IMG/VR virus record: IMGVR_UViG_3300035659_000112
Location: 1-21,840 of that record
Direction: 5' to 3' (one strand)
Length of the DNA: 21,840 bases
Origin: a virus
A model generated the notes under the pieces. That model searched no databases and was not told the DNA's origin. It saw only the letters and a list, made by a program, of their open reading frames with translations. Positions 400 through 21,840 of this stretch are shown here, piece by piece; the stretch's first letter is position 1, and each line of letters opens with the position of its first letter. Both the position numbers and the translations under genes were made by a program.

Positions 400-1020
400 T
401 CAGTCGTTCATTACGATTATCGTGCGCGAGGCGTTCTCATTATTGTATATGGTGGTAATGTCGGTAGCCGCGGCCTGTGTGAACGTCTCAAGAATGTCCT
501 CGTCTTGATTGACAAGCAGGAAGCGCACCGGCCACGTATTTCGGTCAACTGGGAACCGGATGTCGCTGGCGTCAACTATCACTGCCGTGCCACGGTAGGC
601 ACCGACCTCAAGAGCCATTGAGTACACGCGAAACGTCTGCGGCTTTGGCGACGCCGCAGTCGGTGTCACTGGTGCCACGTATATCCGCGCATTGGTGCTG
701 TACACCTTGAAGTCCGATGCCCATTGAGAATGCGAGCGCGTCGTCTTCAGAAAAACAACCATGTCCGCTGGCTGGTTGCCGCAGTATGCAGCATCCGACT
801 CGTGAATGTTACCGGCCAGATACTGATCCGCAATGCGCTGGCAAAGGGCTGTGTCGTGTTGCGCGTCCGTTACCATATGCAAGCCGACATTGTACCACCG
901 GCCTTCACCACGGTGAATGTAGCAGTATAGGTGACCCGCTGGGGCTACCACCACTGCTCTGCGGCTACTGTCACTTGGGATATGCTTTGCTACTGCTGCT
1001 GTCGTTGTCGCTGTTCTCAT
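400..1020 (-). CDS. Hypothetical phage protein, 206 residues
   Basis: First gene after the consensus promoter at 1109-1137. An upstream in-frame ATG at 1137 overlaps the -35 box, so the ATG at 1020 with AAGGAG 7-8 bases upstream is chosen. The protein begins MRTATTTAAVAKHIPSDSS. It has a short Ala/Thr-rich N-terminus, a middle part with scattered aromatic residues and cysteines (C32, C60, C80), and a beta-rich C-terminal half. There is no clear signal peptide, transmembrane segment or motif that I recognise. Its long leader contains two near-identical GC hairpins. It lies beyond the terminator of the structural operon, so it belongs to a separate unit. Function unknown. Confidence 0.7.
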   Translation of the reverse strand: MRTATTTAAVAKHIPSDSSRRAVVVAPAGHLYCYIHRGEGRWYNVGLHMVTDAQHDTALCQRIADQYLAGNIHESDAAYCGNQPADMVVFLKTTRSHSQWASDFKVYSTNARIYVAPVTPTAASPKPQTFRVYSMALEVGAYRGTAVIVDASDIRFPVDRNTWPVRFLLVNQDEDILETFTQAAATDITTIYNNENASRTIIVMND

Positions 1021-1034
1021 CTTCGCTCTCCTTC

Positions 1035-1075
1035 GCCCCCTGTGGGGGCCTTTGTTATCGTCCCCCTGTGGGGAC
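1035..1075 (-). promoter_or_regulatory. Twin GC hairpins in the leader of the 400-1020 gene
   Basis: Two near-identical hairpins lie in the 5' leader. One is GCCCCC-TGT-GGGGGC at 1035-1049, the other GTCCCC-CTGT-GGGGAC at 1060-1075; each has a 6-bp stem. The nearer one directly abuts the ribosome site (1028-1033). No T-tract follows either. They could control translation or protect the transcript. Confidence 0.6.
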
Positions 1076-1108
1076 TGGGTTCTGGGGCCTATTGGCCTCA
1101 ACACCACT

Positions 1109-1137
1109 ATTATAGCAACTTCTATAGCGAATGTCAA
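1109..1137 (-). promoter_or_regulatory. Consensus sigma-70 promoter
   Basis: On the minus strand TTGACA (1132-1137) is followed after exactly 17 bases by TATAAT (1109-1114), with TGC before the -10 box (extended -10). Transcription would start near 1102 and read into the 206-residue gene at 1020. Both hexamers match the consensus perfectly. Confidence 0.9.
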
Positions 1138-4417: not shown

Positions 4418-7400
4418 TTACTTTTTTTCGACCACGAGTGAACATGGTCCAAAGGTTATCGTTTTTGCATTGGTAGTGAACTGTCTAACATATATGCCGA
4501 CATGCGTATTCGCATTCATTGGCGTTACACCTTCAATGGCAATCTGCATCGGCGCATTAGGATTCACGAATCGTTTCGAGAATTGCGGTATGTACACGTC
4601 GCCGATGAATACCGCGAGTTCGTAGTCGACCACGCTTGATGAAGTGTCGAGCGTGAAATTGCCGGATATTCTATATATGCCTTGTTTCTTTGGTTGCAGT
4701 TGTGCAATGAACTGGTAGGTCGGTACATTCGTAGGCGGGTACATCTGCATCCACGTTTCATCCGCTGGAGTCTTCTCCCATCCTGTATGCGCGTACTCGT
4801 GAAAGTTCGTAAACAAAATCCATACGCCGTTTGCAGGCAATGAATACGTGACACCGTCGGAAAGCATGCCTGTGCGCCATAGGTTAGCGTATACATACAG
4901 ATTGCTAAAGATATGGTACTGGTTCATATCCATGTTGCCTGTCATTGGCAATAAACCATCGCGCCTCAAGTATGTCGAATTCACGAATGGCCGTTCTACT
5001 TCAACAGTGTAGTTCACATTCACCACATCGTTACTGTGTTGCGAACCACTTTCGGGATTGCCTACGTGCAGTGGCGCGAGCTTCCCGGATGCGCTTGACG
5101 CCGCGTTCGTGAACACCGCCATGCCACCGCCGGGCACAATAGCGGACGCTGGATCGTACACATTGGCGATTGAGTATCGAGACACATTGTCCAAGAACAC
5201 TATCGACGGGCCGGTCATCGCAGGCGAATCGGCCAACAGTGTCACCTTGTTCGTGGCCGTGTCGGCGTTTCCTGTTCTTGCCGTGACAGCCTTCGCGTAT
5301 AGTGGTGCATAGGTGAATGCAATTGCCGCATCAGGCGCGTAACCATACCCGGTCATAGATAGAAGGTGCAACCCGTCATTGTACCTGTTGACTATGGACA
5401 CAATGCTACCCAGTGTATACATGTCCAAATAAGGGCCTGCGCCCATCAATACCTGATCGGCCTTGAGCCTGACATTCTGATTCATCGTCGGATTCGTAAC
5501 CATCAATCCTCTTGCGAATGACGTTTTCAATTCTATGCTGTTCGTGAGCACATTATAATTCACCGCGCAGAAGCCCTTCTTGTTCTCGATGCCTTCGTCT
5601 GCGTCTGCTACATACAGCCGTGCATATGCACTGCCATATACTTTTCCACTGCCGGTTTTCACGCTCAAGCCTTGACCGTACTTTCCTACTAAGGTCACAG
5701 TCTCCCCCCAGTTGTCCCAGTCAATATACGGGCCGCATCCGAATGTCGCGCCGTCCGTCGTGCCCAGCCATAGATTCATACTCGGGTGCGCTATGTTTGT
5801 CAAGCCTAAGTTCGTGAACCATGCCGTACCGCCGCTGGACAATTTGGAAGCAGTAGCGAGTTGCACTTCGTTTGTCACGCAACGATAGTTCATGAGGCAA
5901 TCGCCTTTTCTATTCCATGATCCTTCATCCGCGTCTGCCGCATACACTCTGCACAAGCCTGTATATTCAGTCAAGGTCTTTCCCAGTCCGTTCATGAATA
6001 TCAAGCCCATACCTGATCTGCTGGCAATCGAGAAGTTATTGCCCCACACATTGAAGTCCATCCATGACCCGTTGCCTGATGTCGTATACGTGCTGCCCAG
6101 TCGCAAGCTCACCATGTCTTGAGCATAGTTCGTTATCGTGAATGTGCCATCCACACTTTCACCCACTGATGTTATTCTGTTTGACAAATCCGTCTCTACC
6201 CATGATGCCCGATTCGATTCGGCGACTATCTGGTTCGACAAGCTGCCATCTATCCAAGCCGTGAGATTCGATATAGCAACAATCTGGTTCGATAGACTTC
6301 CATCTACCCATGCTGTCGTGTTCGATAGTCCGACTACCTGATTCGACAAGCTGGTCTCCACCCATGCGGCCCTGTTCGATTCGGCTACTACCTGATTCGA
6401 TATGCTGCCGTCTACTATCGCGAACGCATTCGATACTGCAATGATCTGATTCGATAAACTTCCGTCCACCCTTGAAAGCATGTTCGACAATGCGACAATT
6501 TGATTCGATACTGATGTCTCTACCCATGCAGCCCTATTCGATTCTGCCACAACCTGATTCGATATGCTACCGTCCACCCATGATGTCCGGTTCGATAGTG
6601 CAATTACCTGATTCGATATGCTTGTGTCCACTACCGCCATTGTATTCGACAATGCTGCCAACTGATTCGAGACCGAGCCGATCTGATTCGATAGACTTGT
6701 TTCTACCCACGAGGCACGGTTCGATTCCGATACGATCTGATTCGATATGCTGCCGTCTATCCACGCCATTGTATTCGACAATGCGCTCACCTGATTCGAT
6801 ACCGCTACCGTCTGATTCGACAGTGATGCCTCCACCACAGAAGCACGATTGCTTTCAGCGAGTATCTGATTCGAGAGCGAATGCGTAATGCCCGCATAGG
6901 TGCCGGACACCGCCACGATTGTATTCGATAGCGTGCCTTCAGTCCATGATGCTCTGTTCGATTCTATTATCACCATGTTCGATACGCCACCAATAGCAGT
7001 CGTGAACTCGTTCGACAAGAATGTTTCAACCCATGCCGCTCGGTTGCTTTCGGCCACAACCTGATTCGATACGCTGCCGTCTACAAGCGCGCACGTATTT
7101 GACACCGATACGATCTGGTTCGACATGTATGTCTCCACCCACGAGGCGCGATTGCTTTCGGCCACAACCTGATTCGACAAACTACCGTCAACGAGCGCGC
7201 AGCTATTCGATAGAGCGACTATCTGATTCGACACGTTCGCCTCGACCCATGAAGCGCGGTTGCTTTCCGCTACCACTTGATTCGATATGCTGCCTGATAC
7301 GAGCGCGGCACCGTTCGACACGGCAACGATCTGGTTCGACAAGCTCGTCTCCACAGTCGTTGCTCGATTCGATTCAGCCGACGTGCTGGTTGTCGATGCT

Positions 7401-7570
7401 TGTGCAGCCATGTTTGTCAGTGGTGCGAATGCTATTTCATTCGTCGTCCACCGAGACACCATCCTGATCTGCGCGCCGTCAATCTTGCTGCCTTTCTGGA
7501 TGTCGTACACACCCGCGAAAGCTGCGCCGACAAGGCTACTGGCCATTAGGCATAAACATAATCCACGCAT
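4418..7570 (-). CDS. Long repeat-rich fibre with a Sec signal peptide
   Basis: The start is ATG at 7570, with a near-perfect GGGGAGGA 5 bases upstream; an upstream in-frame ATG at 7612 has no comparable site. The 1050-residue product begins with a signal peptide (MRGLCLCLMASSLVGAAFA, cut near residue 19). Residues about 67-467 are roughly 22 copies of an 18-residue unit with SN pairs spaced 7 and 11 apart, probably a trimeric coiled-coil stalk. Three related beta modules of about 100 residues follow (about 500-770), marked by YAADADEG and YVADADEG. The last 120 or so residues look like a C1q/TNF-type or similar beta-sandwich (GIYRISGNFTL, VDYELAVFIGD), probably the receptor-binding tip. It overlaps the upstream gene by 35 bases. 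A signal peptide is very unusual for a virion fibre; a cell-surface adhesin is the alternative. Confidence 0.8.
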   Translation of the reverse strand: MRGLCLCLMASSLVGAAFAGVYDIQKGSKIDGAQIRMVSRWTTNEIAFAPLTNMAAQASTTSTSAESNRATTVETSLSNQIVAVSNGAALVSGSISNQVVAESNRASWVEANVSNQIVALSNSCALVDGSLSNQVVAESNRASWVETYMSNQIVSVSNTCALVDGSVSNQVVAESNRAAWVETFLSNEFTTAIGGVSNMVIIESNRASWTEGTLSNTIVAVSGTYAGITHSLSNQILAESNRASVVEASLSNQTVAVSNQVSALSNTMAWIDGSISNQIVSESNRASWVETSLSNQIGSVSNQLAALSNTMAVVDTSISNQVIALSNRTSWVDGSISNQVVAESNRAAWVETSVSNQIVALSNMLSRVDGSLSNQIIAVSNAFAIVDGSISNQVVAESNRAAWVETSLSNQVVGLSNTTAWVDGSLSNQIVAISNLTAWIDGSLSNQIVAESNRASWVETDLSNRITSVGESVDGTFTITNYAQDMVSLRLGSTYTTSGNGSWMDFNVWGNNFSIASRSGMGLIFMNGLGKTLTEYTGLCRVYAADADEGSWNRKGDCLMNYRCVTNEVQLATASKLSSGGTAWFTNLGLTNIAHPSMNLWLGTTDGATFGCGPYIDWDNWGETVTLVGKYGQGLSVKTGSGKVYGSAYARLYVADADEGIENKKGFCAVNYNVLTNSIELKTSFARGLMVTNPTMNQNVRLKADQVLMGAGPYLDMYTLGSIVSIVNRYNDGLHLLSMTGYGYAPDAAIAFTYAPLYAKAVTARTGNADTATNKVTLLADSPAMTGPSIVFLDNVSRYSIANVYDPASAIVPGGGMAVFTNAASSASGKLAPLHVGNPESGSQHSNDVVNVNYTVEVERPFVNSTYLRRDGLLPMTGNMDMNQYHIFSNLYVYANLWRTGMLSDGVTYSLPANGVWILFTNFHEYAHTGWEKTPADETWMQMYPPTNVPTYQFIAQLQPKKQGIYRISGNFTLDTSSSVVDYELAVFIGDVYIPQFSKRFVNPNAPMQIAIEGVTPMNANTHVGIYVRQFTTNAKTITFGPCSLVVEKK
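6170..7372 (-). repeat. About 22 imperfect 54-bp tandem repeats in the fibre gene
   Basis: The segment encodes an 18-residue unit of the form SNQxVAxSNxxxWVxxSx. On the plus strand it shows recurring CTGATTCGATA-type blocks. Copies alternate between an ESNRASWVET type and a xSNxxAxVDGS type, giving a 36-residue higher-order period, and at least two places carry an extra heptad (near 6660 and 6790). It is a coding repeat, prone to expansion or contraction by recombination. Confidence 0.85.
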
Positions 7571-8237
7571 AAACGTCCTCCCCTTCATAAGTTGAACCAA
7601 CTTCATTGACATTCCAGCGAATTATCGAGCCCGCTGGTAATGCAATCGAAACTTCTTCCTCCGGGATCATTGTAGTGCCGTCCGTCAATGTCAACACGTT
7701 CATCGAGGGCACGCCGTCCACGGTCATCTCTACTTCACAATCACTGCCTTCTGGGGCCTTCTTGCTGCCTCCAGCAAGCAATGTAACTACACCGCCGCCC
7801 GCTGGTACTCTGTAGGCCATACTACTCAAGAGTTCGCCCACCACAGGCAACCCTTCCGACATGAAGTATATCGGGTATGGCGCGGTCGCAATCGGCACCA
7901 CTGTCTGCGCTGTGTCCGGTTCATCCATGACGTTTACCATGAATGACCCATACTTCGTGATTGAACCATCGGAACATGACCAGAACACATCAAGATACAC
8001 CACGGTCGTTTGTGGTGACATGTACCCTACAGGCACTACAATGGTCACTTCGTTGTTTTCAATAGGTGCCGCTGAAGCGTAAATCTTGCCACCCATTGTA
8101 CGCCAGTACATTGAGTACATCACCAACAGAGCATTGTCGGGCTTCACGCCTGCGCCGTCAAGTGCGGATATAACTTCCGTCCACACGCGGCCGCGCGCGG
8201 GCGAGAATGCGCCTGCAATCTGCTGTACGTTTATCAT
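7536..8237 (-). CDS. Putative baseplate/tail-tip adaptor protein
   Basis: A 233-residue protein whose ATG overlaps the preceding stop (ATGA at 8234-8237), with GGAGG upstream. The first 100 residues are beta-rich (ALLVMYSMYWRTM, TVVYLDVFWSCSDG, YGSFMVNV) and resemble the N-terminal domain of BppU-like baseplate adaptor proteins. The C-terminal half is another beta domain ending in DVYAWIMFMPNGQ. Its position between the hub-like protein and the fibre fits a fibre attachment protein. The family match is a pattern judgement only. Confidence 0.55.
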   Translation of the reverse strand: MINVQQIAGAFSPARGRVWTEVISALDGAGVKPDNALLVMYSMYWRTMGGKIYASAAPIENNEVTIVVPVGYMSPQTTVVYLDVFWSCSDGSITKYGSFMVNVMDEPDTAQTVVPIATAPYPIYFMSEGLPVVGELLSSMAYRVPAGGGVVTLLAGGSKKAPEGSDCEVEMTVDGVPSMNVLTLTDGTTMIPEEEVSIALPAGSIIRWNVNEVGSTYEGEDVYAWIMFMPNGQ

Positions 8238-11117: not shown

Positions 11118-13613
11118 CTATGCCGCTGATCGTTGTGTTGCCAGTGCGTCCATACGCCGCTTCAAGTCCTCAATGGCCTTCTGGTGCGTCTCGATGGCCT
11201 TAGTCGTTGCGGTTGCTGCCACATCTTCTTTCTGCCACGTCTCGCGCATCTTGTCAAACAGTGTTGCCATTTTCTCGTGGGCGACGAATTGCTTTTTCTC
11301 TGCCGCTTCTTGCGCCTTCTTCACCTTGTCTACAGCGGTCGTTTTCTTCTCATCCTTGCCCTTGCCTTGATCTTCTGGCTTCGTCGTATATCTGTCCGAC
11401 CACTGCTCTTTGTCACGCTTATCTTTCTTCTCACGTTCCTTCTTTGCGCCGGGCCTGCTTTCGTCAATTGCTTCCGCTGCCAAAGCCTCTTGACTATCTC
11501 CTGCACGTTCTGGCTTGGCGCGCTCTCGGGCAATGTAGCGCATCTGATGTTCGCGCTCTGCCTTTGCGAATTTCTCGTCTTTCTCCTTGTCGGCCTTAAA
11601 GGATGGGCTACGCTTCTGAGCCGAGTCACGGTACTCTTTGTCCTCGCGCTGTTCGACGAAATCTTCTTCGTCCTTCTTCTCGGCTTCTGCTTCGCGATGC
11701 TCAACCGTCCACTTCGCTCGTCGCTCTGCGGTCTTTTGTTTCCGCTCTGCTTTCCACGCCTTTGAACGTTCGGTGCCGGACATCATTTCTTTCTTGGTTT
11801 CTTCCTCGACCGGTTTCGACTTGGCCTCCGCTTCCTTATCCGTCGCCTTGGCGCACTTGTTTGCTGCCGCCGCAAGAGCTTCTATCTCCCTTTCTGCTTT
11901 CGATACCACCGCCGTCTTGCTTCCCATCTCCACGTCTGTTCCTAACCCTTGTTTGACAGCCGCCTTGCCACCTGCACGCGATCTTTCTTCTTGGTAGGTC
12001 TCCTTACCTGCCCTATAGCCTTCGTTGCCCACTGCCGCCAATATCTCCCCTGCGCGGGACTTCTGCGTCGCGCCCTGCGTCGCATAGTCCGCTTGCATCC
12101 GTTCTTTCTCGCCGGTCTGCTCACGGAGATTCATCTGCTTTGCGTCTGCCAACCTCTTCTGCTTTCCAAGCTTATGCACCTGATCGCCTGCGCTCGTAGC
12201 TGCTTCTTCAAACATGCTGCCCATGCCGGGGAGCTTGGCCATTGCGTTGAGTATCGACGACACCATATCGGTCGCCTGATATTTCATGGTCACAATTTCG
12301 CTGTTCGCCACCGAGAATAGCAACTGCATCTTGAGTCCAACAATGTCGATTGCCGTCATCCAGTAATTCCAATATGACTTAGTAGCACCGAGAATGTTCG
12401 ACACCAGTTCTTCTCTCATCTCTCCTAACGCCGACACCGCCGCACGCGCACCGGAACTGACAGCCTTGACAAAGTCCGTGCCGTATTCCACAATCACTTT
12501 CTCAATCGGAGCAACCAAGTATTCCGAGATCACAAAACCCATTTCCATGAGTGCGTTAGTCAACTGTGCGCTCCGGGCAATACATGTATCGAGATTGTCT
12601 GCCGCATAACCCGCCGATGCACCTGAAGCGTTGTTGACTTCATCGGTCGCCTGCTTCACGAGATTGACACCGCCCTTTGCCGCGTTCAACAGTTCGGTCA
12701 TGCCCTTTGCGCCGCGCCGGGAGAATATCGTAACCATGTCCGCTGCGGTCATTCCTTTCGCGGCCATTTCGTCAATCAGTTCGGCCATGGTCTTTACTTC
12801 GCCACTCGCTTTTTTGATCTCAATGCCATACTTCGAAAAGGTATTGTCTCCTGTCTCTGCAATGGACATCAGCCGCATCATTGCGACGTTCAACTGAGAA
12901 GTGGCTGCTCCGCCATCCTTCACCGCATTGCCCATCCCTAACGCTGTGCCGACGATCTCTTGAAACGAGTATCCCATCTCTTGTGCCTGCGGTGCGATTG
13001 TGCCCAAGGTGTCACCGAGTTCTGATAGCCCGCTATACACACCCTTGATACTCGACTTCGCCAACACATCCATCACGTCGCCTGTACGGCTGCTATCTAT
13101 CCCGTACTGCCGCATCACTTGCGCTGTGATTCTGTAGGCGTCCGCAAGTGAATTCTGCGTTGCTGTGGCCAGTTCTGCTATGTCATCAGTCGTCTCGTAT
13201 ATCCGCGCTGTGTCCTGACCTTGTTTTGCCAAGATGGCCATGGCCTGTACTGTTTCCTCCGCGCCGTACATCGTATTCTCGGCCATGTTCCGTGCATGCA
13301 GTGAGACAGCCTCGAAGTCCTCACCCATCGAATGTGCGGTATTCTTGGAAGCCCACTCCAGTTTCTCGTAGGCTTCTTCCATGTGCAGTAGCTTCTCGAT
13401 GCCTTTCTTTGCGCCTTCGTAAAGGGCCTGACCGCTTGCGAACTCGAATATCTTCTTGAGCGCGCCTCCGCTGCCTTCCTTGGTTCCCTCGGCCAATTTC
13501 TGTCCTACCTTGACGCCCGCCTTCTGTGCATCCGTCTCAAGCTGTTTCCACACCTTCTGGATGTCTGCCGGGTCGCCCGTGATATTGATTACCATTTCGG
13601 ATTTCGATTGCAT
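11118..13613 (-). CDS. Tape measure protein
   Basis: An 831-residue protein, the second longest here, with AAGGAG just upstream of ATG at 13613, where the ribosome site overlaps the stop of the chaperone T frame. Residues about 70-290 match the TP901-type phage tail tape-measure core (PhageMin_Tail): ARNMAENTMYGAEETVQAM, a Gln/Asp-rich loop, and LGTIAPQAQEMGYSFQEIVG. It sets tail length and is packed inside the tube. The stretch at about 560-800 is an extremely charged Lys/Glu/Arg helix with almost no hydrophobic residues, unlike the hydrophobic membrane-crossing parts of many tape measures. The position right after the G/GT chaperones confirms the call. Confidence 0.9.
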   Translation of the reverse strand: MQSKSEMVINITGDPADIQKVWKQLETDAQKAGVKVGQKLAEGTKEGSGGALKKIFEFASGQALYEGAKKGIEKLLHMEEAYEKLEWASKNTAHSMGEDFEAVSLHARNMAENTMYGAEETVQAMAILAKQGQDTARIYETTDDIAELATATQNSLADAYRITAQVMRQYGIDSSRTGDVMDVLAKSSIKGVYSGLSELGDTLGTIAPQAQEMGYSFQEIVGTALGMGNAVKDGGAATSQLNVAMMRLMSIAETGDNTFSKYGIEIKKASGEVKTMAELIDEMAAKGMTAADMVTIFSRRGAKGMTELLNAAKGGVNLVKQATDEVNNASGASAGYAADNLDTCIARSAQLTNALMEMGFVISEYLVAPIEKVIVEYGTDFVKAVSSGARAAVSALGEMREELVSNILGATKSYWNYWMTAIDIVGLKMQLLFSVANSEIVTMKYQATDMVSSILNAMAKLPGMGSMFEEAATSAGDQVHKLGKQKRLADAKQMNLREQTGEKERMQADYATQGATQKSRAGEILAAVGNEGYRAGKETYQEERSRAGGKAAVKQGLGTDVEMGSKTAVVSKAEREIEALAAAANKCAKATDKEAEAKSKPVEEETKKEMMSGTERSKAWKAERKQKTAERRAKWTVEHREAEAEKKDEEDFVEQREDKEYRDSAQKRSPSFKADKEKDEKFAKAEREHQMRYIARERAKPERAGDSQEALAAEAIDESRPGAKKEREKKDKRDKEQWSDRYTTKPEDQGKGKDEKKTTAVDKVKKAQEAAEKKQFVAHEKMATLFDKMRETWQKEDVAATATTKAIETHQKAIEDLKRRMDALATQRSAA

Positions 13614-16172: not shown

Positions 16173-16771
16173 ACCTTGCCGCCCCATGATTTCTTGACCC
16201 TACGCACCGCTGCGTCGAATGACTGTTTCACGCGCTTCTTGAACACCCGATCAAACTCCTCTGTCGTGTAGCTGAAAAACGGCCTGAGCACTTTCTTCTT
16301 GCCACTGCCTAACCGGTCGTGGATATAGGCAACGTCGTTCGTTGTCATCGTCGGCGTGGCCCGGTACATCTTTGTCACTCGTGACCGCGCAATGTTGGTG
16401 GCCTTCTGTTTCCCTACGCCTCCTTTCCATGACTTGCGAATGATGCGTGCATTCTTGCTCTTTGTGGAGCGTGTGTCCTCGCCATAACGCCTGTCCTTGA
16501 TGAATATCTGGACATGGTTCATCGCCATCTTTCGATGGCTGATATGGTCGCGCATCATGCCGGTCGCATACAGGGGCACCCGTGGCCTGTCCAAGCCGCG
16601 CCGCTCCTTTGATCGGATTGTCTTTGCCGCAAGTGGTGGCTGCACTTCTCCCTGCTCGATCTTCTTGCGAATCAACGCCGCGAGGTCGCCTGCTACCGCC
16701 ATGAGCGTTGGAGTGCAATCGAGCTTCGACCAGTTGATCGACGGGAAAATCACTGCCTTGCTTTTGCCCAT
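16169..16771 (-). CDS. Head-tail completion protein, HK97 gp10/virion-morphogenesis type
   Basis: ATG at 16771 with AGGAGG 4 bases upstream; a GTG one codon earlier is too close to that site. The 200-residue basic protein has the layout of gp10-like completion proteins: a helix (LMAVAGDLAALIRKKIEQG), then the run QPPLAAKTIRSKERRG (about 44-59), then PLYATGMMRDHI (about 67-78), similar to the family's pplsp.T...K.....PL..TG.mr.si signature. The C-terminal half is Arg/Lys-rich and includes an aromatic strand (FFSYTTEEFDRVFKKRVKQ). It would sit at the head-tail joint. Its start overlaps the stop of the preceding gene. Confidence 0.65.
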   Translation of the reverse strand: MGKSKAVIFPSINWSKLDCTPTLMAVAGDLAALIRKKIEQGEVQPPLAAKTIRSKERRGLDRPRVPLYATGMMRDHISHRKMAMNHVQIFIKDRRYGEDTRSTKSKNARIIRKSWKGGVGKQKATNIARSRVTKMYRATPTMTTNDVAYIHDRLGSGKKKVLRPFFSYTTEEFDRVFKKRVKQSFDAAVRRVKKSWGGKV

Positions 16772-17881: not shown

Positions 17882-18592
17882 TTATCGTGTGAACTGTAGC
17901 GAGTTCATGGGTTCGTGTTCTGTTGCAGGCTCGAAGTATACAAAGTCCAGTGCATTCACCTTCGCTTCCCACTCCTTGTCAGCAAGAGCCCGCTTCTCCG
18001 CGTACACGCTATCATCTGTGCGCTGCAACATAAACAGTACCAGCCGCAATGCACCCCACTTGATCGCCGCGTCCGCGCCGCGCCAGCCGTCTGGAATGTA
18101 TATGGCCTTGTGGACTAACTCGTTCTCACGGGCACGGTCTAACGCCTCCTCGACCACTTCGACCACTGGGCACATGCCGGGCATATGGTACACTTCTTCA
18201 TATGCGTCCAGTATCTGTGGTGCGAAGCCGCCTGCCTGATATTGCACATTGCCGCGAGCCGCGAGAGTAAACGACATCGAAGGCTTGCCCGCGTCCTGCT
18301 CTATGACCATGGAAGTGTTAGTCAGAACGGTCTTGACATGATAGAAGCCGATGCCAAATAGAATCACCAGCGTGCCGGGCTTCGCTGCTGCGCCGTGACC
18401 GCGCTGGTGCTTGAAATTGCCTTGCGCGCTTGTCAGGGTTGCCGTCGTGCCGTCTGTGGCCACGTCCGACAATACCCCATCACGACCTCTGCCGTCCTTT
18501 GGCCAACTGTCCGCAAGTGCAGCAAGTTCCGACTCGAACTCGGGGCAGATACGGCGCAGGTCATCGTCGCCTACGTGGATTCGCAACGCCAT
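17882..18592 (-). CDS. Putative head-tail connector / head completion protein
   Basis: ATG at 18592 gives 236 residues (MALRIHVGDDDLRRICPEF); an upstream ATG at 18634 would overlap the previous gene by 20 bases. It contains a beta part (about 40-100) and a helical C-terminal half with GWRGADAAIKWGALRLVLF and EKRALADKEWEAKVNALDF. The helical half resembles small head-tail connectors, where a helical bundle docks on the portal. The assignment comes from position after the capsid gene and helix pattern. Confidence 0.5.
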   Translation of the reverse strand: MALRIHVGDDDLRRICPEFESELAALADSWPKDGRGRDGVLSDVATDGTTATLTSAQGNFKHQRGHGAAAKPGTLVILFGIGFYHVKTVLTNTSMVIEQDAGKPSMSFTLAARGNVQYQAGGFAPQILDAYEEVYHMPGMCPVVEVVEEALDRARENELVHKAIYIPDGWRGADAAIKWGALRLVLFMLQRTDDSVYAEKRALADKEWEAKVNALDFVYFEPATEHEPMNSLQFTR

Positions 18593-18614
18593 GCTACCGC
18601 CTGTTGTTCGGAGA

Positions 18615-19013
18615 TTATTCTGCCGGTGCGTCAACGCACGGCACGGCGGTCATGTTGTGACGCTGCCGTGACTTCACGATGGCTTTCTTCTGTCCTGACA
18701 CCGGGTCAACAAAAACCTCGGTATAAGGCTCGGTCGCGTTCTTCATCGCGTCGTACACTGAGTAGGTCACCTTCGTCTGGACATCGTAGGGCACATTCGT
18801 CTTGATCGTGTTCACGATCATCTGGATCCCACTGAGCTTTGCGCCCTGCGGTCTGCCTACCATCACCATCATAAAGTCGGGATGTCCGATCGGCGCGACG
18901 GCTGTCTGTGCCGTGGCCGGTGCTTGTGTGACGCCGTCGCTGGGAGCCGGGGCTTGTGCGACTGTGCCTTCGTCTGTAGTGCCTTGCGTCTGTGCTGTCT
19001 TTTTCGTGCTCAT
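18615..19013 (-). CDS. Hypothetical head-region protein with a disordered N-terminus
   Basis: A 132-residue protein with GGAG 6 bases before ATG. Residues 1-45 are a Thr/Gln/Ala/Pro-rich disordered segment. The rest is a small beta-rich domain (FMMVMVGRPQGAKLSG, YDVQTKVTYSVYDAM, YTEVFVDPVSGQKKAIV). No motif recognised. It lies between the signal-peptide protein and the connector gene. It could be a capsid decoration or head accessory protein, which is speculation. Confidence 0.6.
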   Translation of the reverse strand: MSTKKTAQTQGTTDEGTVAQAPAPSDGVTQAPATAQTAVAPIGHPDFMMVMVGRPQGAKLSGIQMIVNTIKTNVPYDVQTKVTYSVYDAMKNATEPYTEVFVDPVSGQKKAIVKSRQRHNMTAVPCVDAPAE

Positions 19014-19604: not shown

Positions 19605-20612
19605 CTACACCTTTGCCGCCACTTCCAGCCGACTCATGAAGGCGTCGTTCAGAATCTTGCACGTGTACAGGGCGACCCAGCCCACTGAGCTGTAGCGATT
19701 CAGTGCGCCGCCCACCTGCTCGGGCGTCTTGATTATCATGCCCGTGTTGACGCTGTTCTCCAGCGGGGCGGTGCCGAATGCTTCGCGACCAAGTGCGAGA
19801 ACCAGATACACATCCGCTTGCGCGCCGGTCTTGCTGCGCAGTGTGCCACCGGCTACGCCGCCCGCGTCGGGAATGACTGCGGCATTCGTGGTTTCGATGA
19901 ATCGCAGCAAGCCGTAGCTACCGAACTCGCCGGGCATGAGCGTGGTGTTCCCAGCGTAATTGCGCACGGGCACATATCCCGCGCCGTTCGCGCCGATGGC
20001 CTCAATCGCGGGCTTCAGGTGCGAATGCACGATGCAGGGGAAGCACGGCATGATCGGCTCTGCCACGGAGTCGAGCGAACTGGGCACAAACTCCGTGAGC
20101 GGACGTGCAAGACCCGTGGCGAGGTTCATCAAGAGCCGGTCGAGGTCTTGATAGGTCACGGTCGTTTTCACGTCCACACGAGCGGCGACGTTGTTCGCAT
20201 AGACCACGGAATTGCCACCCACGATCTTGTCGCGGGTCACGAGGTCAAGCGAGACGCCCATCTGCTCGCCGAATGCGTCCACCATGGAATTGAGAACCAC
20301 GTCCTGCTCGGTGACAGACTTGAGACTCGATGTCTCCGTGTAGTCGCCAAACTCTTCGAGCTCGGCATCCACGTTCGTCTTGTCCCAGTTCTGTCCGGGC
20401 GGGTTCACGCCTTCAACGAGCGGAGTCGTTGCGGGCTTCAGCGATTCGACGCGCACCCAGCGCACGATGCTGCCCATGTTCGGCATGAGATTGCCGCGCC
20501 GACCAAACAGGCCATGCACGAGATTCGGCACTGCACGGATCAGCAATGCGCGGTCGAAAAACTCCTCAACTGCATTGGGCACTTGTGCCCCGGTATTACC
20601 AAGCGTTACCAT
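19605..20612 (-). CDS. Major capsid protein, N4-gp56 family type
   Basis: A 335-residue protein with AAGGAG 6-7 bases before ATG. The N-terminal region matches the N4-gp56 capsid family in form: VEEFFDRALLIRAVPNLVHG (15-34) with GRRGNLMPNMGSIVRWVRVESLKPATTPLVEGVNPP (37-72 region), then FGDYTETSS and MVDAFGEQMGVSLDLVTRD. Ends in a strand and helix (YTCKILNDAFMSRLEVAAKV). It forms the HK97-fold icosahedral shell. Flanked upstream by the scaffold-like gene and downstream by a strong hairpin. Family assigned by sequence pattern, without a database search. Confidence 0.85.
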   Translation of the reverse strand: MVTLGNTGAQVPNAVEEFFDRALLIRAVPNLVHGLFGRRGNLMPNMGSIVRWVRVESLKPATTPLVEGVNPPGQNWDKTNVDAELEEFGDYTETSSLKSVTEQDVVLNSMVDAFGEQMGVSLDLVTRDKIVGGNSVVYANNVAARVDVKTTVTYQDLDRLLMNLATGLARPLTEFVPSSLDSVAEPIMPCFPCIVHSHLKPAIEAIGANGAGYVPVRNYAGNTTLMPGEFGSYGLLRFIETTNAAVIPDAGGVAGGTLRSKTGAQADVYLVLALGREAFGTAPLENSVNTGMIIKTPEQVGGALNRYSSVGWVALYTCKILNDAFMSRLEVAAKV

Positions 20613-20650: not shown

Positions 20651-21349
20651 TTAGTGAACACCCATTGCAGCGCGGCGCGCCGCAAGCTCCTTGGCCGTCA
20701 TCGTTCGATTCGGGCCGGGGGCTGAACCACCACCAGCGGGGTTCTGGGATTGCTCACTCTGTTGTGTCTTTACTTGAAACGCCGGAACGCCAATCGTGCG
20801 CAGGTCATTGAATGTTTCAACATTCTTCTGCATCTGCTCGACGGTCAATTCCTTGCCCGCTTCGGGCGCGACAAACTTCGATGCAAACGTCGCCTTGTGT
20901 TCGGGCACTGCGAGAATCGCGGCCAGATGCTTTGAGACCTCGCCGTACTTGGTTTTCACCGTCTCGGCTTCTCTCGTCTCGTATGCCGTGAGCTTCTGCT
21001 TCATCGGCTCGAATTGCTTCTGGTACGTTTCATTCTCTTGTGCCAACTTCTGCAACCGTTCGTCTGCGGCGGTCGTCATCAGTTTCACCCTGTCCTGCTC
21101 TGCGAATTGATCGCGGCGCATTCCAGTCACTTTCTCCAACAGGGCGGTCGCTGATTCCCTCACGGCTTTCGCTTCTTCCCTGACTGTGTGCAACTCACCC
21201 TGCGTTTCCTCGCGGGTGAATAGATCACCTTCAGGCATAAGCGCGGCTACTGCGGACACGCAGGCTCCTGCCTGTGCATCATCCAGTGTCAACCCTGCGG
21301 CCTTCAGGACGCCGGGCAACTTGCCTTTGACTGATTCAAACTTGAACAT
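20651..21349 (-). CDS. Scaffolding-like coiled-coil protein
   Basis: A 232-residue protein with GGAG 7 bases before ATG, the first gene after the promoter at 21395-21424. It has a short N-terminal domain (MFKFESVKGKLPGVLKAAGLT), a long charged coiled coil (about 50-130: LHTVREEAKAVRESATALLEK, LQKLAQENETYQKQF), then AGKELTVEQMQKNVETFND and a Gln/Gly/Pro linker ending in a basic helix (ELAARRAAMGVH). This layout is typical of capsid scaffolds (GP20-like), which direct shell assembly and are removed afterwards. The basic C-terminal helix probably contacts the capsid protein encoded next. Confidence 0.8.
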   Translation of the reverse strand: MFKFESVKGKLPGVLKAAGLTLDDAQAGACVSAVAALMPEGDLFTREETQGELHTVREEAKAVRESATALLEKVTGMRRDQFAEQDRVKLMTTAADERLQKLAQENETYQKQFEPMKQKLTAYETREAETVKTKYGEVSKHLAAILAVPEHKATFASKFVAPEAGKELTVEQMQKNVETFNDLRTIGVPAFQVKTQQSEQSQNPAGGGSAPGPNRTMTAKELAARRAAMGVH

Positions 21350-21394: not shown

Positions 21395-21424
21395 AGTATA
21401 CCATACTTCACTACGATTTGTCAA
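21395..21424 (-). promoter_or_regulatory. Promoter of the structural operon (P3)
   Basis: TTGACA (21419-21424), an 18-base spacer, then TATACT (21395-21400) preceded by TGG (extended -10). It lies 46 bases upstream of the scaffold-like ATG and should start the long late operon. Confidence 0.88.
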
Positions 21425-21464
21425 GTTCTCTCCTATGCAGCCTCGCACACACGTCCCCACATCG

Positions 21465-21504
21465 AGGGGAAAAGAGAACGCCCCGACTTTCGCCGGGGCG
21501 TTCT
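21465..21504 (-). terminator. Intrinsic terminator T2
   Basis: AGAACGCCCC (21475-21484) pairs with GGGGCGTTCT (21495-21504), a 10-bp GC-rich stem (11 with 21485/21494). The tail CTCTTTTCCCC on the minus strand is T-rich but interrupted, so some readthrough into the structural operon is likely. Confidence 0.75.
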
Positions 21505-21643
21505 GAAAGGTGCCGTGGGGGTAGGAATCCTCACGGCGGGGCAGTATAACGGTTGCTCTGAATCTCTCCTGCTTTCGTCTGTCCGCTTCCCGGCTTCAGC
21601 CGTTCAATGGACATCCTTGCAGGTGCAGAATCAGCCACACCGC
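21470..21643 (-). ncRNA. Candidate structured small RNA of about 175 nt
   Basis: Begins about 7 bases after the -10 of P2 and ends at terminator T2. It contains a CGGC-TGAA-GCCG hairpin (21591-21602), a GCCGTG/CACGGC hairpin with a 14-base loop (21512-21517 with 21532-21537), and the terminator stem. A 27-codon frame (21529-21612) has its only Shine-Dalgarno-like bases touching the ATG, so the RNA is probably noncoding. Function unknown; a leader that attenuates readthrough is the alternative. Confidence 0.5.
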
Positions 21644-21649
21644 TGCACT

Positions 21650-21678
21650 ATAATACCATTTCCTTGCGTGGATGTCAA
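21650..21678 (-). promoter_or_regulatory. Consensus-like promoter P2
   Basis: TTGACA (21673-21678), 17-base spacer, TATTAT (21650-21655) with TGG before the -10. Directed to the left; about 145 bases before terminator T2 begins its stem. Confidence 0.85.
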
Positions 21679-21727
21679 CTCTGTGACAATAAGCTGGCCT
21701 ACATACACCGCATTGCCATGTCGAGGG

Positions 21728-21765
21728 GAAAAAAAGAAGCCCGACGCTATCAACATCGGGCTTCT
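21728..21765 (-). terminator. Intrinsic terminator T1
   Basis: AGAAGCCCGA (21735-21744) pairs with TCGGGCTTCT (21756-21765): a 10-bp stem, 11-base loop, then seven T on the minus strand (21729-21735). A textbook intrinsic terminator. Its flanks (TTCAGAA before, TTTTCCCCTCGA after) recur at T2. Confidence 0.92.
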
Positions 21766-21799
21766 GAACTGTAGTAGGATGCAGGTTGCCAACATCCAA
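21729..21799 (-). ncRNA. Candidate small RNA of about 70 nt
   Basis: From the expected start of P1 (about 21799) to terminator T1. It contains GGATG and CATCC arms that can form a small hairpin (around 21782-21798) ahead of the terminator stem. No coding frame with a ribosome site fits inside. Could be a true small RNA or a prematurely terminated leader; it does not fold as a tRNA. Confidence 0.5.
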
Positions 21800-21805
21800 C
21801 GAACC

Positions 21806-21835
21806 ATTATACCATATTGCACTGCCGGTTGTCAA
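21806..21835 (-). promoter_or_regulatory. Consensus promoter P1
   Basis: TTGACA (21830-21835), an 18-base spacer and TATAAT (21806-21811), with TGG directly before the -10 box. Perfect hexamers; reads to the left toward terminator T1 only about 40 bases beyond the start. Confidence 0.9.
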
Positions 21836-21840
21836 GTAAA

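Follow-up and report, generated by a model that had tools for sequence, protein, structure and literature searches.

Two tandem promoter-RNA-terminator units located between the portal gene and the head genes of an uncultivated tailed phage form, with a probability of about one half, an accessory non-coding cassette at the promoter of the head operon, i.e., a pair of RNA morons whose promoters serve as exchange joints. The allele of a sister phage gives good support to the idea that this cassette would be acquired or removed when the promoters at its ends recombine, with a promoter being kept for the head genes.

Organization of the array and its surroundings

The window, that is the whole stretch of 21,840 nucleotides that was analyzed (positions 1 to 21,840 of the IMG/VR record IMGVR_UViG_3300035659_000112, an entire contig), carries the recognizable head and tail genes of the phage on its minus strand. 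All features of the array are on that strand as well, in the order P1, RNA1, T1, P2, RNA2, T2, P3 and first gene of the head region.

21835-21806 (-): promoter P1, TTGACA-18-TATAAT, 12/12 match to the sigma70 consensus, extended -10 (TGG)
21729..21800 (-): RNA1, predicted, about 72 nt; 5' hairpin GGAUGU..GCAUCC, then T1; ends predicted
21765-21735 (-): stem of T1, a 14-pair intrinsic terminator, followed by a T-run
21716..21742 (-): terminator-border repeat, copy 1, which includes TTTTCCCCTCGACATGG
21678-21650 (-): promoter P2, TTGACA-17-TATTAT, 11/12 match to the sigma70 consensus, extended -10 (TGG)
21470..21644 (-): RNA2, predicted, about 175 nt; long rod, GCCGUG hairpin, T2; ends predicted
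21504-21475 (-): stem of T2, a 13-pair intrinsic terminator, followed by CTTTT
21457..21483 (-): terminator-border repeat, copy 2, which includes TTTTCCCCTCGATGTGG
21424-21395 (-): promoter P3, TTGACA-18-TATACT, 11/12 match to the sigma70 consensus, extended -10, before the head genes
21397..21807 (-): segment of exactly 411 bp missing in the sister; one equivalent placement
20651..21349 (-): first gene after P3, 232 residues, with the SD AAGGAGAG
19605..20612 (-): gene of the major head protein (phrog_1357, E 3.5e-49)
11118-13613 (-): tape measure gene

That two tandem units precede the head genes had been noted in the first-pass annotation, and the sequence is as it described, with near-consensus promoters (12/12 in P1, 11/12 in P2) and distances of about 70 nt from P1 to T1 and about 175 nt from P2 to T2. 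P3, which was absent from that annotation, completes the array. Thus, 450 bp hold three extended -10 promoters of 11-12/12 and two strong terminators, and TGG precedes the -10 box in P1, P2 and P3. Four promoter-like sites are present between positions 20000 and 21840, against 0.7 expected, and the strict extended -10 consensus occurs four times in the window, seven times in a 46-kb relative and not once in shuffled copies of that relative.

The array had also been said to lie ahead of the late operon. It does precede the head genes, but not the operon as a whole, as the terminase and portal genes are upstream of the cassette site. The portal gene is directly upstream of P1, as read from IMGVR_UViG_3300036761_000155, and a further conserved hairpin is found at its end, just before the array; TerL belongs to phrog_2. 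Judged by its position, the product of the first gene after P3 (20651-21349) is probably the scaffold; it has no match in PHROGs. A papain-family cysteine protease (Pfam PF00112) is encoded elsewhere in the phage (13048-13860 (-) in the relative L009). Farther along the window, positions 4418-7612 (-) encode a protein of 1064 residues with many SNQVVAESNRASWVET-type repeats followed by a non-repetitive C-terminal part, which has no match in PHROGs either.

Repeated elements and RNA bodies

Both terminators start with TTCAGAA (21768-21762 in T1, 21507-21501 in T2), and both are followed by TTTTCCCCTCGA (21732-21721 and 21473-21462, respectively), next to which comes CATGG or TGTGG. The earlier description of TTCAGAA, TTTTCCCCTCGA and Y-R-TGG as common to the two sides is borne out by these coordinates, and their sharing is above chance. 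Thus, the borders of T1 and T2 are 78% identical over 27 nt (21 matches), a level that none of 200 shuffles reached, and the exact 12-mer repeat was matched in 4 of 1000 dinucleotide shuffles. Among the promoters, the look-alike of P1 is P3, not P2: P1 and P3 are 80% identical over 35 nt (28 matches; reached in 0 of 200 shuffles), and P2 has little in common with P1 beyond the consensus positions. The RNA bodies without their terminators (34 and 141 nt) are not alignable, their score being equalled by 207 of 1000 shuffles. The proposal that the units are paralogous modules thus stands for the related terminator borders, but it does not extend to the RNA bodies, nor to a promoter P1 that resembles P3. 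Because the RNA bodies are unrelated and P2 is unlike P1, the repeat consists of the joints, namely the promoters and the terminator borders, rather than of whole units.

Both RNAs fold better than 200 of 200 shuffles, with a z score of -5.7 in each case, and RNA2 minus its terminator has z scores of -3.5 to -4.9. The Rfam scan yielded no family; its highest score, 22.4 bits where the threshold is 114 bits, is a chance match on the opposite strand. A 6S-like RNA, suggested by the rod shape of RNA2, was rejected, as it has no Rfam support, and so was a tRNA-like RNA, as ARAGORN finds none. RNA1 and RNA2 were not predicted to pair with the ribosome-binding sites of the phage any better than shuffled RNAs do. 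Neither RNA contains a credible open reading frame with a ribosome-binding site; in RNA2, the ribosome-binding-like AGGAGAGA is not accompanied by a suitably placed start codon, and a frame of 27 codons (MSIERLKPGSGQTKAGEIQSNRYTAPP) lacks a ribosome-binding site at the proper distance. On inspection of the sequence, neither RNA1 nor RNA2 was seen to begin with a pause element resembling a -10 box.

The sister allele

Relatives identified by the head protein, the portal and the next gene comprise two close contigs and one at 27% that has no such module, and none was found in GTDB genomes. IMGVR_UViG_3300036761_000155 (46254 bases) is of the same species as the window phage, with 8 differences in 7164 bases at the cassette end and 1 in 8656 at the other end. 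It is the sole relative that carries the cassette, across which it is identical to the window; the two same-species assemblies hence have zero differences in the cassette, against 9 outside it. At its two ends, the window aligns with opposite extremities of this contig, from which the genome would be circular or permuted, with a size of about 52 kb.

In the sister, IMGVR_UViG_3300032164_000516, whose head protein is 97% identical, the cassette is absent. The missing 411 bp, which correspond to one copy of the 9-mer TATGGTATA plus everything between the two copies, span the region from the -10 box of P1 to that of P3, including both RNAs, both terminators and P2. The breakpoint can be placed anywhere in the 9-bp TATGGTATA, which is identical in P1 (21816-21808) and P3 (21405-21397). 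The order in the sister is portal gene, same hairpin, single promoter and head genes, with no terminator between the promoter and the head genes. The spacer of this promoter agrees with that of P1 at 16 of 18 positions and with that of P3 at 12 of 18, and beyond the -10 box it is identical to P3 at 14 of 16 positions and to P1 at 6 of 16. As the sister promoter is P1-like upstream and P3-like downstream, the joint is located within TATGGTATA. Collapse by the assembler in the sister seems unlikely, given that the shared identical stretch is so short.

Either of two histories might account for these alleles. The array may be old, with P1 and P3 having recombined in the sister to delete it; alternatively, the cassette may have arrived with its own promoter end. 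At the 15 non-consensus spacer positions, P3 shows 6 differences from P1 and from the sister promoter alike, against 2 between the latter two; this larger divergence of the P3 spacer argues against P3 being a recent duplicate of P1. The data fit both histories, with a leaning, short of proof, toward deletion in the sister over insertion in this lineage.

Search for homologues of the cassette

Homologues of RNA1 and RNA2 were sought in IMG/VR and in GTDB genomes with exact short patterns, as well as in phage and plasmid records and in Rfam, and none was found in these collections beyond the same phage species. By blastn, the cassette gave a single 32-nt match among phages, to the stem of T2 (E 0.4), and no match among plasmids. 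In IMG/VR, TTTTCCCCTCGAYRTGG is present in 15 stretches, none of which, except in the same phage, has it after a hairpin; the other occurrences are in unrelated sequence and look like chance. A 19-mer from the core of RNA2, used as an exact pattern in IMG/VR, was found in the same phage only, and a 17-mer of RNA2 had 41 matches in GTDB genomes, none with extended similarity. For RNA1, a 17-mer had six matches in IMG/VR, with no terminator context outside the same phage. The best RNA1-like match, in L077 (73% over 64 nt), was rejected, as it sits within a gene. As no homologue of either RNA was found, there is no evidence of selection on the RNA structures.

Possible functions of the cassette

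Going by the consensus matches, the host sigma70 RNA polymerase would produce two RNAs, one of about 70 nt started at P1 and terminated at T1 and a structured one of about 175 nt started at P2 and terminated at T2, and P3 would drive the head genes. The cassette would come and go through recombination of the two extended -10 elements at its ends, which are nearly identical, and each exchange would leave one working promoter before the head genes. For a pair of RNA morons, the most likely role is one in trans, RNA1 and RNA2 being putative small regulatory or decoy RNAs that might act on RNA or protein of the host or of the phage.

The main alternative to an RNA moron pair is that only the terminator-promoter joints matter. 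The array would then be mere transcription punctuation, with the T1-P2 and T2-P3 joints kept for exchange and for insulation between transcription units, and the RNAs being functionless, or else remnants of protein morons. This is a possible but tentative reading, consistent with the restriction of the repeated parts to promoters and terminator borders, with the further hairpin at the end of the portal gene, and with the ribosome-binding-like motif and the 27-codon frame in RNA2. On the other hand, RNA2 without its terminator is still far better folded than shuffles, and two successive strong promoters and terminators exceed what insulation needs, the sister managing without them. Antitermination as at lambda PR'-6S-tR', with both T1 and T2 stopping transcription for as long as no phage factor permits readthrough to the head genes, would agree with the layout of promoter, short RNA, terminator and late genes. 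It is nevertheless unlikely, because P3 is located after T2, making readthrough unnecessary, because the sister has a single promoter and no terminator before its head genes, and because none of the phage proteins scanned matches an antiterminator, sigma factor or RNA polymerase family; the lack of a pause element at the start of either RNA also speaks against it. Moreover, the fact that the sister is without exactly these 411 bp points to an accessory recombining unit, and not to an essential antitermination switch. That RNA2 might be the mRNA of a 27-residue peptide is very improbable: its ATG-started frame does stop shortly before T2, but AAGG abuts the ATG with zero spacing and the frame is within the strong rod structure.

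It is rather doubtful that RNA1 and RNA2 represent two new families of trans-acting phage RNAs in interchangeable cassettes bordered by the late promoter itself. If the cassette is indeed a pair of RNA morons, it would exemplify accessory phage DNA that consists of RNA genes alone, with the promoter of the recipient as the recombination joint, and exchange at that joint would leave late transcription unbroken.

Comparison with known systems

By analogy, the cassette appears to work like lambdoid morons, the PeSLs of T4-type phages and the repeats of cluster O mycobacteriophages, although the phage is not of the T4 type and the moron gene is only putative. A moron carries a gene, usually protein-coding, that was acquired from elsewhere. 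Sequence matches indicate that the cassette has its own promoter and terminator, and it is present or absent between close relatives in which the flanking genes are adjacent. It contains no protein gene, and neither donor nor homologue was found in the collections searched. In lambdoid prophages, sRNA genes, among them anti-sRNAs such as AsxR and AgvB, are found at the moron site downstream of PR', where short RNAs of 51-60 nt are reported (PMC4104026). Like lambdoid morons, the units described here are extra, have their own transcription signals near a late promoter, and are missing from sister phages. In contrast, the lambdoid sRNAs belong to temperate E. coli phages, in which they form convergent pairs downstream of PR', whereas the present units are in tandem on the same strand in the portal-head interval, and no sequence relation was seen between those sRNAs and RNA1 or RNA2.

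The first-pass annotation had considered such a layout unusual for late promoters of phages, a statement that goes too far. In lambdoid phages, transcription from the Q-antiterminated late promoter PR' likewise runs into a terminator (PMC6266700), with sRNA genes downstream (PMC4104026). As at lambda PR'-6S RNA-tR', a strong late promoter runs into a terminator before late genes. Unlike in that system, where no promoter comes after the terminator, a separate promoter, P3, follows T2, and the sister does without the cassette; among the proteins scanned, none matches a Q-type antiterminator, a remote or unscanned one being possible.

The composite motifs called PeSLs, and their shuffling, were reportedly described by Arbiol in 2010 and by Comeau in 2014. 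As they are cited in later work, PeSLs of T4-type phages combine a promoter with a stem-loop terminator and are said to mediate the modular shuffling of genes (PMC4503421, PMC3950731). Inasmuch as these citations portray them, they resemble the present array, where terminator-promoter joints (T1-P2, T2-P3) are found between the exchanged units and the one exchange seen, i.e., the difference between alleles, is exactly between two joints. The array differs from them in that it has two joints only, a host-type sigma70 promoter, and RNAs instead of genes between the joints. Rather than a T4-type phage with many phage early promoters, its carrier is a phage of about 52 kb with a phrog_1357 head protein and a phrog_2 TerL.

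In cluster O mycobacteriophages, segments flanked by 17-bp repeats in one genome correspond to a single copy of the repeat in sister genomes, which has been ascribed to recombination between repeats (PMC4351075). The present case is similar in that a segment between short direct repeats is replaced by a single copy in the sister. However, the cluster O repeats are palindromes mostly unrelated to promoters, and here the repeat is the promoter itself.

Other transcription signals in the phage group

A third promoter-short RNA-terminator unit is present in the phage group (17373-17473 (+) in L009, 17081 (+) in L012), divergent from a GTP cyclohydrolase / PTPS / radical-SAM operon that probably encodes a 7-deazaguanine pathway. 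The RNA, 66 nt long, contains a hairpin whose loop, UCUCCU, is the complement of AGGAGA, which serves as ribosome-binding motif in 23 of the 47 phage genes examined; the pairing of this RNA with phage gene starts was not clearly above that of shuffles, and it has no match in Rfam. The sister has the same 5' hairpin, and its terminator stem shows a compensatory change from CAGG/CCTG to CGGG/CCCG. At positions 17373-17400 of L009, a palindrome (TTGACAATTCCTTGTCAA) that looks like an operator is shared by two overlapping, divergent promoters of the extended -10 type. Finally, L010 harbors two paralogous promoter-plus-leader stretches (16470-16610 and 18592-18735 (-), the second corresponding to window 994-1137 (-)), which are 83% identical over 145 bp and have 12/12 promoters and G/C-rich hairpins ahead of the ribosome-binding site.
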